Shown: positions 1 to 5,035 of the stretch, one piece after another
Numbering within the stretch: the stretch's first letter is position 1
Layout of the letters: each line of letters opens with the position of its first letter
Position numbers and translations under genes: made by a program
The notes under the pieces: model-generated
What the model saw: only the letters and a program-made list of their open reading frames with translations
The model's database searches: none
What the model was told of the DNA's origin: nothing
NCBI RefSeq assembly: GCF_900141935.1
Contig: NZ_FQYX01000024.1
Span: 1-64,000 of the forward strand
DNA from: Arenibacter nanhaiticus
GTDB taxonomy: Bacteria; Bacteroidota; Bacteroidia; Flavobacteriales; Flavobacteriaceae
Direction of reading: 5' to 3'
Length of the DNA stretch: 64,000 nucleotides

Positions 1-242
1 GCATCCTCATATCCCTGCATCAGCATAAATACGCGTTGCTTTAAAAGTTTCTCTATCGTATGGGTGACTAAGATGGGATTGCGACTATCTGGAATAAATT
101 TACTGAAATACCTGATTAACTTGTGTTCCCGCTCTATTTTCTCCAGTAAAACCAGAGAACCATCAGAACTTATTTCTTCTGCAGAAAAATCTACGGAAAT
201 TGATTTTTTACCTCGGTAGAAAACTGTATTTTTAGTACTCAA
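1..242 (-). mobile_element. IS1380-family transposase, N-terminal part (cut by window edge)
   Basis: The minus strand reads open from a likely TTG start at 242-240 to the window edge, about 80 codons. It is not preceded by another usable start, because an in-frame TAA lies a few codons upstream. The protein has an opening like FYRGKKSISVDFSAEEIS and then the block QRVFMLMQGYED, which is typical of the conserved N-terminal part of IS1380-type DDE transposases (family knowledge: a GYEDANDHD-like block follows). The catalytic residues lie outside the window. The element ends near 321-337, next to a TTAA at 338-341, and appears to have cut the regulator gene that starts at 346. Family assignment is by motif recognition only. 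Confidence 0.8.
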
Positions 243-312
243 AATTGGGTGATTTTAGTGTTAGTAAAGATGCCTGTAAGCTCTTTAAATATAACACTTT
301 ACACCCAATTTT
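241..312. repeat. Long imperfect inverted repeat inside the IS end
   Basis: The arm at 241-270 (AAAATTGGGTG, then TAGTGTTA, then TAAAGA) is largely the reverse complement of the arm at 283-312, with a loop of about 12 nt. It lies between the transposase start and the outer end of the element. Such hairpins can shield a transposase gene from outside transcription, or they can be part of subterminal transposase binding sites. Which applies here is not visible. Confidence 0.6.
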
Positions 313-320
313 ACTATATA

Positions 321-341
321 CCCATGAATTATCCGGGTTAA
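321..341. repeat. Probable IS terminal repeat (321-337) and TTAA target (338-341)
   Basis: Read from the minus strand, the element end is CCCGGATAATTCATGGG, directly flanked by TTAA at 338-341. IS1380-family elements are known to use short terminal repeats and 4-bp targets, often TTAA. The partner end lies outside the window, so the repeat cannot be confirmed here. The coding sequence of the LytTR regulator becomes recognisable immediately after this point. Confidence 0.5.
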
Positions 342-345
342 TTGT

Positions 346-987
346 GTGGGTATTGCCAATAACAGTATCGAAGGCCTTAATGGTATTTTAAAAAAAATGC
401 CCCATATAGTTTTCATTCATTTGAACGAATCGGCCCACGAGTATTTCCATATGATGGCAGAATTACATCAATACATAAAGAAACTTCCGTTGTTTATAGC
501 CGTTTCAAAAACCAAGGAATACGCCTATGAAGCAATAAAATCGCAATGCTATGACTACTGGCTGCTTCCTTACAATGAATATGACATTCGTAAGTCTCTT
601 TTTAAACTGAATTTGAAATTAGGAGAAGAACAAAAACCACCAACTCTATTATTACAATCTTATAAGGATTGCCGCTATCTAAATACAGAAGAAATTGTGT
701 ATTTACAAGCTGATAATAATGCTACTGATTTCTATATGGTAGACGGCAGTATTATCAGTGCTTACAAAACCTTAAAGACCTTTGAGAACAATTTACCTGA
801 AAACTTCATTAGGATTCATCAAAGTTTTATTATCAATATCAGCTATATCTCTAGAATAAATTACGGAAAAGGCATTTGCACCTTAAAGCACAATAAACAC
901 CAGCTTCCCTTTTCAAAAACCTACCGAAACAATATTGAATTCTTAAAAAAGACCCTATCCAAAAACACCATTTCGACCTTAAACTAA
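346..987 (+). CDS. LytTR-domain regulator, 5'-truncated by the IS insertion
   Basis: Residues 108-207 form a LytTR DNA-binding domain with its signature FIRIHQSFIINISYI. Residues 1-90 resemble the second half or more of a receiver domain, beginning at the VGIANNS-like strand that normally lies about 35-40 residues into such proteins. The first strand with the acidic pair is therefore missing. The GTG used as a start here lies only a few bases past the TTAA junction. The remaining receiver is also odd: the phosphoacceptor Asp position reads FIHLN and the conserved Lys position reads YWLLPY, so the parent was probably a phosphorylation-independent pseudo-receiver. Expression would need a promoter supplied by the IS. 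It is probably a pseudogene, although the DNA-binding domain is intact. Confidence 0.8.
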   Translation: MGIANNSIEGLNGILKKMPHIVFIHLNESAHEYFHMMAELHQYIKKLPLFIAVSKTKEYAYEAIKSQCYDYWLLPYNEYDIRKSLFKLNLKLGEEQKPPTLLLQSYKDCRYLNTEEIVYLQADNNATDFYMVDGSIISAYKTLKTFENNLPENFIRIHQSFIINISYISRINYGKGICTLKHNKHQLPFSKTYRNNIEFLKKTLSKNTISTLN

Positions 988-1056
988 TCGAATCCTCTCA
1001 GAGTACAACCACTCACTATCAAACAGATAGCATTCACCAAAGATCCTTTCGACAAA

Positions 1057-1064: not shown

Positions 1065-1128
1065 ACGGTACCGCTTTCCTAGTTTCGTAATAGAAATTTA
1101 AAGTACTAACCCCCAAAAATATAGTAGG

Positions 1129-1362
1129 ATGAACAAATTAGCTGGAATTTTCGGAATAGCCATAATAACTCTTGGTTTGGCTGAAACACCTCAAAAACCC
1201 TCCTTAGAAAGTCAACCGCCTTTGTTTCAAGAGACAGAAAACACGATCGCTACCGACGGTGACGATGTGCCGATTGACAGAAGGGACCGACCAAACACCA
1301 TCCTCGCTTTCACGGACGGTGACGATGTACCGATTGACAGAAGGGAGCGACCTACCGTATAA
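1129..1362 (+). CDS. Small secreted protein with a duplicated 14-residue motif
   Basis: This is a 77-residue protein with a signal-peptide-like start (Lys3, hydrophobic stretch about 4-17, possible cleavage near LGLAE) and a Pro/Glu/Ser-rich linker. It has two near-identical C-terminal units, TDGDDVPIDRRDRP (42-55) and TDGDDVPIDRRERP (62-75). The DNA copies at 1253-1292 and 1313-1352 differ at only about three of 40 positions and have a 60-base period, which points to recent duplication or selection. The gene has its own -7 element and a strong terminator, and sits just before a TPR sensor kinase. I do not recognise a named family. A peptide-signal precursor or a small exported acidic peptide is an inference from layout only. 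Confidence 0.75.
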   Translation: MNKLAGIFGIAIITLGLAETPQKPSLESQPPLFQETENTIATDGDDVPIDRRDRPNTILAFTDGDDVPIDRRERPTV

Positions 1363-1382
1363 CATTTTTTAGCTAAAATGTA

Positions 1383-1416
1383 AACCCCTGAACATTCTTG
1401 TTCAGGGGTTTTTATT
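1383..1416 (+). terminator. Rho-independent terminator
   Basis: A perfect 12-bp stem (AACCCCTGAACA / TGTTCAGGGGTT, 1383-1410) with a 4-nt loop is followed by a T-run. It ends the transcript of the small repeat protein before the sensor kinase starts at 1432. Confidence 0.9.
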
Positions 1417-3513: not shown

Positions 3514-4182
3514 ATGAAGACGATACGAATACTAGCTGTAGATGATCATGAAATGATTACTACCGGATACAAATACATTTTAGAAGCTGCTGAATTTGAT
3601 GACTTCAAGATAAAGATGGAGACCGCCAACTCTTATGAACTTGGAGCACAGAAAATTATGGACTCGGCCCGCTCCTTTCTTTTTGACCTCATATTATTAG
3701 ATATTCAATTAACGCCCTCTCAAGAAAAAGAACCTCACTCTGGTGAAGAGTTAGGGTTGTTAGCGAGAAAGCTTGTCCCCGACTCCAAACTTGTTTTTAT
3801 GTCGTCCTTCAGTGACAATTACAGAATTAACAGCATTCTAGAAAATGTGAATCCTGAAGGTTATATGGTAAAATCCGAGGTAGACGAAAAATCATTGATC
3901 GCCATGGTTAAAACCGTAACTACCTGCCCTCCTTATTACAGTCAGAAAGCCCTAGTTGCTATTAGAAAAAAAGTAGCGAACGACCTCATTTTAGACAACA
4001 AGGACAAAAAAATCCTTTACCATATCTCTATTGGCACCAAAACCATTGATATCGTAAACTATGTAAACCTTTCCCTCGCAGGCATAGAAAACCGAAAAAG
4101 ACAACTTAAAGTTGTTTTTGGAGTAGAAAAACAAAACGATATGGCCTTAATTACCGAGGCTAAGAACAGGGGGTTCCTATAG
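3514..4182 (+). CDS. NarL/LuxR-type response regulator
   Basis: The N-terminal receiver domain has the acidic pair Asp10/Asp11, phosphoacceptor Asp63 (LILLDIQL), Ser97/Ser98 and Lys120, so it is intact and should be phosphorylated. The C-terminal 65 residues (from about 160) fit a divergent LuxR/GerE-like helix-turn-helix, with KIL, IVNYVNLSLAGIENRK and a basic final helix. Its place directly after a HisKA_3 kinase, a class that normally pairs with NarL-type regulators, makes the two a cognate pair. It was probably co-transcribed with the kinase. Target genes are not visible. The neighbouring small repeat protein is one candidate. Confidence 0.9.
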   Translation: MKTIRILAVDDHEMITTGYKYILEAAEFDDFKIKMETANSYELGAQKIMDSARSFLFDLILLDIQLTPSQEKEPHSGEELGLLARKLVPDSKLVFMSSFSDNYRINSILENVNPEGYMVKSEVDEKSLIAMVKTVTTCPPYYSQKALVAIRKKVANDLILDNKDKKILYHISIGTKTIDIVNYVNLSLAGIENRKRQLKVVFGVEKQNDMALITEAKNRGFL

Positions 4183-4375: not shown

Positions 4376-5035
4376 ATGTTATCAGAAGACTTTTTCAACA
4401 ACCCCAAGACGGAATATAAAAGTATACAGCATATAAAGGGTCTAGATACTTTTAAAAAACAATTAGAAAAGTATTTTTTCTCGGACATCAATATTCACAA
4501 TTATGGAACGGCTCAAAGTGCCGCAAAATTGGTGATAGAGATCGAATGTAACTTTGGCCTTAGCGAGGCACTTCACCACTTAAATCTCAGAAATAGAAAC
4601 AATGAAGGCACTGTAATAAACAGCAAAAAAATCACTTTTTTCTTCACTTGGGTTTTAAAAAAATTAAAACAGGCAAATAACTTTCCTATAGATATTTCCG
4701 AAGTCACTATCTTTTTTGATGACACTACCTTATTAATTTCTAAAATTTACGACCAAAGTATTCCCGAACAGTTAGACGAAATCTTCAATAAACTTATTGA
4801 ACACAGCGCCCACTACACCAACAGAGGAACCGTTGTTCCTTTTGAAATTTTTATTCCTGTTTTTGAAGACAAAACCGCCTTCGAATATATTTCATCAGAA
4901 AAAATAAGCTCTAAAACTAGTATGGATTATTATAAATATTGGGGAATTTACGGGGAAAGAACCGAGGAATGTGTCGTTTACAATTTAGAGACAAAAAGCA
5001 TTATTATCGGGGATATCAATGTACTTACACCTTAG
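4376..5035 (+). CDS. Conserved-looking protein of unknown function
   Basis: A 219-residue soluble protein with no signal peptide and no membrane segment. I do not recognise a family. It is mixed alpha/beta with a charged N-terminal half and a C-terminal part rich in aromatic residues (MDYYKYWGIYGERTEECVVYNLE). The last segment pattern, an acidic beta strand ending in IIIGDINVL, is unlike a DNA-binding domain. It stands alone between the two-component pair and glyA, ends at a shared terminator, and has codon use like its neighbours. A toxin-immunity-like or ligand-binding role cannot be argued from the sequence. Confidence 0.75.
   Translation: MLSEDFFNNPKTEYKSIQHIKGLDTFKKQLEKYFFSDINIHNYGTAQSAAKLVIEIECNFGLSEALHHLNLRNRNNEGTVINSKKITFFFTWVLKKLKQANNFPIDISEVTIFFDDTTLLISKIYDQSIPEQLDEIFNKLIEHSAHYTNRGTVVPFEIFIPVFEDKTAFEYISSEKISSKTSMDYYKYWGIYGERTEECVVYNLETKSIIIGDINVLTP

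Follow-up and report, generated by a model that had tools for sequence, protein, structure and literature searches.

The window analysed here – the first 64,000 nucleotides of contig NZ_FQYX01000024.1 of Arenibacter nanhaiticus – carries near its left end a small gene for a predicted exported protein, preceded by a truncated LytTR regulator gene and followed by genes for a TPR-containing sensor kinase and a response regulator (Table 1). The small protein is without any Pfam match, and near its C-terminal end are two 14-residue cores spaced by 20 residues. The sequence-only reading of this DNA had described two near-identical units, placed directly before a TPR kinase and its regulator, and both parts of that description are borne out: the DNA copies (1252-1292 and 1312-1352) share 93% identity across 41 bases with a period of 60 bp, and a gap of 69 bp separates the small gene from the kinase ATG. 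The feature is real and widespread.

Table 1. Features of the locus, with positions in the window
Feature	Position	Strand	Basis
DDE_Tnp_1_4 transposase, N-terminal part, cut by window edge	3..242	-	Domain match
LytTR regulator, 5′ end lost to insertion	346..987	+	LytTR 4.3e-18; alignment with L002
Direct repeat ACTATCAAA/ACCAAAGAT, 21 bp period, 5′ of precursor	1015..1044	+	Possible LytTR-type operator
-7-like promoter element TAGTTTCG	1080..1087	+	Similar sites at like distance at many related loci
Putative exported peptide precursor, 77 aa, two units	1129..1362	+	ORF; genus orthologues with 2-14 units in the same place
Predicted N-terminal export signal MNKLAGIFGIAIITLGLAE	1129..1185	+	Basic start and hydropathy rule only
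Unit 1, 14-residue core TDGDDVPIDRRDRP	1252..1293	+	Unit comparison, DNA copies
Unit 2, 14-residue core TDGDDVPIDRRERP	1312..1353	+	Unit comparison, DNA copies
Hairpin with T-run, terminator or attenuator	1382..1411	+	13 pairs; recurs in relatives
Sensor kinase, 677 aa	1432..3465	+	TPR_12 1.2e-20, HATPase_c 8.8e-12, HisKA_3 0.0001
Response regulator, NarL-like by weak matches	3514..4182	+	Response_reg and MctR, below cut-offs

The left end of the locus is disrupted in this strain. A DDE_Tnp_1_4 insertion element (window 1-345), which we take to be of the IS1380 type, interrupts the LytTR gene at about position 337, and the contig begins inside the element. Homology with the LytTR gene of Arenibacter sp. 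6A1 (locus L002) starts near 338, and about 27 codons are missing. Decay of the locus as a whole was considered, given the cut LytTR gene and the presence of only two units, and was set aside because the precursor and kinase reading frames are open. In the LytTR protein of L002 (5128-5856) the receiver-like half reads, by eye, VVFIHLN (VFINLN in relatives) where the phosphorylated Asp is expected, and it may be a pseudo-receiver.

The kinase has an N-terminal hydrophobic segment, a TPR region at about residues 45-415, one transmembrane segment near 420-438, and HisKA_3 and HATPase_c domains, the HisKA_3 match (23.2 bits) falling just under its cut-off of 24. Hydropathy profiles of 86 kinases of this type place a transmembrane segment between the TPR and catalytic parts (at 400-455) in all 86 and none within the TPR region in 84; the N-terminal hydrophobic segment is found in only 65, with gene starts approximate. 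Given a membrane segment between the two parts and none inside the TPRs, the TPR region should be periplasmic and the kinase part inside the cell, a prediction that rests on this layout. An AlphaFold2 model built from two sequences (window and L002) had a pLDDT of 44 and was unusable, and comparison of the sensor region with the sequences of solved structures gave three matches, namely a designed TPR protein and two SPINDLY chains. The regulator matches Response_reg at 22.2 bits (cut-off 30.2) and MctR at 53.8 bits (cut-off 300), and a response regulator lies immediately 3′ of the kinase at all 67 loci tested. The genes after it are one (4376-5035) without a Pfam or NCBIfam match, a serine hydroxymethyltransferase and a fumarylacetoacetase; a gene like the first, judged by eye, occupies the same place in genome G356 (L075).

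All 18 genomes of the genus have a single kinase match at E 1e-40 or better. Directly upstream is a repeat protein in 14 of them and a remnant at a contig end in the other four (G001, G002, G010 and G016), where the contig stops within the array; for G001 and G016 a second contig ends in the rest of the array. A run of N inside the array in G007, G008 and G011 may be an assembly gap. Contig ends or N runs within arrays were seen at L040, L043, L046, L047, L049, L050 and L051 (7/18 genus genomes), and draft genomes therefore often lose unit numbers. The 11 complete arrays have 2 (window), 4, 5, 5, 6, 6, 6, 6, 7, 7 and 14 units, and their repeat periods are 20, 28 or 34 residues; L002 has five units, and some relatives have precursors longer than that of the window, up to 507 aa. 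Variation in repeat number, which the sequence-only reading had put forward as a check, is thus observed, from 2 to 14 units. All matches below E 0.1 in the genus search fall in arrays.

The unit copies within genomes show that the core, T-D-G-D-x-x-P-x-D/E-R-R, is under purifying selection. Between copies of the 14-residue core there are 580 synonymous and 59 nonsynonymous differences, and between linkers 303 and 195, the counts being pooled over all within-genome unit pairs (for linkers, those of equal length only). The pairs overlap in the copies they compare and so lack independence, and the 14-unit array of G003 has a large weight; counted by genome, amino-acid change in the core is absent from 6 of 11, and change in the linker is present in all 10 that have linker pairs. 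T-D-x-D and R-R are invariant in 12 typed unit rows. Core DNA identity is 0.931 within genomes and 0.704 between them, as expected if arrays homogenise and then diverge by species.

A profile of the Arenibacter-type unit matched only four of 397 family genomes (three of the genus, and G356), each with a match at the precursor-kinase locus, and because of this the kinase was used to find the wider set. At E 1e-60 the kinase matches 79 of 198 relatives at 99 places in all, comprising 18 in the genus, 52 that were read first (53 loci with G356) and the 29 weakest. A small ORF predicted to be exported – a call made by a hydropathy rule only – lies within 400 bp upstream of the kinase at 49 of these 53 loci. 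In a sample of the phylum, 29 of 296 genomes have the kinase at E 1e-50, every one a member of the Flavobacteriaceae, and the new loci from this sample have the small ORF in 27/27 cases (26/26 once the duplicate G356 is excluded). The weakest kinase matches, 29 from the relatives and four from the phylum sample, have it in 20 of 33, one of the 20 being in G427, which belongs to another family of the same order. Outside the genus the total is 95 of 112 loci. In the genome of the window, no such ORF precedes any of 20 other GHKL-ATPase genes, although four of these appear from their N-termini to be of GyrB, MutL and HtpG types and not kinases, and gene starts were taken as the first ATG of the longest ORF in this control and extrapolated from the kinase match in the test set.

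Thirteen of the 17 loci without a small ORF are among the 33 weakest kinase matches. Nine of the 17 lie in tandem kinase clusters, five in G076 and two each in G100 and G036 (L138, L247, L139, L227, L143, L228, L238, L242 and L244), and each of these three genomes also has a kinase with a precursor; it is possible that the nine are eavesdropper receptors. L134 is at a contig end. The remaining seven (L223, L241, L246, L248, L250, L254 and L255) are unexplained, and several of them may be paralogues with another function.

The precursors at these loci share a hydrophobic leader and fall into different peptide classes, such that unrelated peptides fill the same position in other genera, some as tandem repeats. 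L103 has six copies of CDDCAHDSDDRET, L118 three of TGGGVDERD, L200 five of DVSGSGAARSTKL and L203 four of DIIGAGATGGNKKV; L124 has a single tail ending YYLLAHTKDKITLPTGEQ. The six units of L103 (994-1365) contain CDDC and could bind metal or form disulphides, and L252 and L253, in the weakest kinase group, share a precursor tail, GDPSNPKPPR, that represents a further class. Internal repeats were detected in 20 of 86 full precursors (a set that excludes the 33 weakest-match loci), compared with none in 20 shuffles. Placed on the kinase tree, the repeated state requires seven gains or losses, at least four of them forced by well-supported branches. Whole precursor genes are also found in tandem, four in G101 (L142) and two each at L225 and L233. 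Two small exported ORFs, either different or nearly identical, stand before one kinase at L204, L212, L225, L232 and L233.

An alignment of 12 precursors from a single class shows a conserved leader and a variable C-terminal tail. A profile of a precursor class other than that of the window, with 12 rows from 12 of the 14 genomes searched, gave 17 matches at E<=1e-12, every one just upstream of a kinase of the same family; its weaker matches include two small ORFs elsewhere (G053:C2 and G142:C1), and the other 11 are in frames of 266-1862 aa. Close homologues thus adjoin TPR-HisKA_3 kinases in the genus, family and profile searches, a point that the sequence-only reading had put forward as a check, and the finding that it said would refute it, homologues lying mostly away from any kinase, was not made in any of the three.

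Peptide divergence tracks the TPR region more closely than the catalytic region. With 67 loci, the partial correlation of peptide distance with the TPR region given the catalytic domain is 0.404 (p 0.0005), and with the catalytic domain given the TPR region it is 0.021 (p 0.30); the corresponding values with 86 are 0.342 (p 0.001) and 0.046 (p 0.12). An earlier peptide set, in which some rows were wrong, gave 0.341 on average for the TPR region with positions cut to the catalytic length. Peptide distance is also correlated with the response regulator given the TPR region (0.237, p 0.0005), and within the genus with the catalytic domain given the TPR region (0.427, p 0.0085) as well as with the TPR region (0.373, p 0.0075). 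Because the regulator, and within the genus the catalytic domain, also track the peptide, part of the covariation reflects common ancestry. A scan by position placed 15 of its top 25 positions in the TPR region (mean r 0.050 versus 0.035), which does not set that region apart, and gave no pointer to a binding site. The matched variation in TPRs that had been proposed as a check is seen to this extent, with shared phylogeny remaining, and the apparent peptide-TPR covariation is suggestive and not proof of specificity.

The small gene had also been credited with its own promoter and terminator. General scans of the window for either gave no excess of sites over shuffles, but a hairpin with a T-run lies between precursor and kinase at 46 of 60 loci, against a shuffle mean of 0.5 (maximum 2 in 20 shuffles), with seven of the 67 loci not testable, and the -7-like site, for which the Bacteroidota consensus is TAnnTTTG, has similar counterparts in many related loci. 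LytTR proteins bind direct repeats of the kind found 5′ of the precursor. The pattern ACTN18AC[TC] is present at 19 of 34 LytTR-linked loci, against a shuffle mean of 5.1 and a maximum of 12 in 200 runs, while among the 29 loci that have no LytTR match, 2 have the 21-bp direct repeats (1.2 in shuffles). The pattern was picked after the alignment had been seen, and related loci are not independent.

We propose that the small protein is a peptide-signal precursor and the periplasmic TPR domain of the adjacent kinase its receptor, in an arrangement that resembles the RRNPP systems of Firmicutes without belonging to them, and we put the probability of this at roughly 0.65. The N-terminal signal, inferred from sequence, would export the precursor, and proteases would then split its array into peptides built around the conserved core, a core defined by selection with cleavage being inferred. 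A peptide would next enter the periplasm, whether of the cell that made it or of its neighbours, and bind the TPR solenoid of the kinase, which would signal through the adjoining regulator; here the adjacency is observed, and both binding and phosphotransfer are inferences. Control of the precursor promoter may lie with the upstream-encoded LytTR regulator, acting at the 21-bp direct repeats. A terminator between precursor and kinase would allow the precursor to be made in excess, and with more units in a precursor each transcript would yield more peptide. The idea of a processed precursor, already present in the sequence-only reading, is strengthened by the pairing with the kinase, the range of 2-14 units, the selection on the core and the covariation with the TPRs; cleavage, release and TPR binding remain inferred. 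There is no direct evidence for cleavage, release, binding or output, and whether signalling runs between cells or within one envelope is likewise a matter of inference.

The small protein could instead be an uncut envelope partner, a co-sensor, either periplasmic or held by a lipid anchor, that binds the TPR region and reports the state of the envelope inside one cell, its repeats raising avidity. That a small protein usually adjoins the kinase fits this, and a lipoprotein-like Cys near the end of the signal, seen in 43 of 66 single-copy forms (36 of 86 precursors by a stricter pattern), suits a membrane-held ligand equally well. Only three of 20 repeated forms have this Cys, and a co-sensor does not predict its absence from the other 17, although a single genus accounts for 11 of the 20. 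Nor does it predict arrays that reach 14 units and keep their cores more strictly than their linkers, or four whole precursor genes in tandem. We consider a co-sensor unlikely without dismissing it. It would be more surprising still, and we think it very improbable, if adjacency reflected regulation and not a ligand and its receptor, the small protein being a surface protein, structural or metal-binding, that is expressed under the control of the kinase. The core is acidic and rich in Asp and resembles calcium-loop repeats such as TDGDGVPD, and the six CDDC units of L103 give zinc-ribbon Pfam matches; against this, the window protein has no Pfam match, other genera have unrelated peptides at the same position, and the Asp spacing is, by eye, not kept across classes, for which reason a calcium-loop (TSP3-like) reading is not preferred. 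Repeated cores after a leader also occur in RiPPs, and weak below-cut-off matches to RiPP-related models would allow a RiPP with several cores, or a bacteriocin-like peptide, that has a regulatory system to itself; with neither a modifying enzyme nor a transporter in the eight window genes searched, and the no-match gene, serine hydroxymethyltransferase and fumarylacetoacetase as the next genes, we give this scarcely any credence.

If the precursor-receptor reading is extended to all loci, it becomes a peptide language of the Flavobacteriaceae as a whole, in which a lineage-specific hypervariable peptide co-diversifies with a periplasmic TPR kinase and tandem copies, gained several times, raise the dose – an envelope counterpart of RRNPP evolved independently in Gram-negatives. 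We hold this extension only tentatively, at a little under even odds. No established peptide pheromone system is known to us from Bacteroidota, and searches of open-licence PubMed Central papers listed neither such a system nor a description of the present one, an absence that is weak evidence. The locus has the look of a peptide-signalling system not described before, in a Gram-negative group, the marine flavobacteria. It offers candidate peptide sequences (e.g. the core-containing ATDGDDVPIDRR), a candidate receptor and many natural variants, and with these a specificity code that can be tested in a major group of marine bacteria.

Several known systems invite comparison. Agr and ComD/ComE encode a peptide precursor, a histidine kinase and a regulator in one locus, and their kinases sense with polytopic membrane domains. 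The window locus likewise unites precursor, kinase and regulator and includes a LytTR-type regulator, but its kinase has a TPR region and one transmembrane segment and is of the HisKA_3 type, and no AgrB-like or ABC processing gene is present among the eight window genes searched. The regulator gene beside the kinase, constant across the tested loci (67/67), is a likeness to peptide-sensing two-component systems generally. Residues 156-462 of the kinase weakly match the NCBIfam model of FimS of Porphyromonas gingivalis, at 36.8 bits and far under its cut-off of 600; to our knowledge FimS has no peptide precursor.

The nearest parallel is with RRNPP/RRNPPA of Firmicutes (PMC10075063, PMC9765709). 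In those systems, a gene for a small exported propeptide adjoins a TPR receptor gene, propeptides are of 10-100 aa, are Sec-secreted and can hold as many as six mature-peptide copies, a propeptide may be missing for some receptors, and receptors are intracellular and of about 250-500 aa. By comparison, the putative propeptide of the window (77 aa, with relatives up to 507 aa) is within the size range, the proposed receptor has TPRs (TPR_12 1.2e-20), and the genes are adjacent, as they are at 18/18 genus loci (four remnants counted) and 95/112 outside; for Sec secretion there is only a signal called by the hydropathy rule. The differences are a Bacteroidota host, arrays of up to 14 units, a receptor that is a 677-aa histidine kinase, and TPRs predicted by hydropathy to lie outside the membrane. 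Because receptor size and predicted location fail to fit RRNPP, we regard the locus as one that would work like RRNPP and do not classify it as RRNPP.
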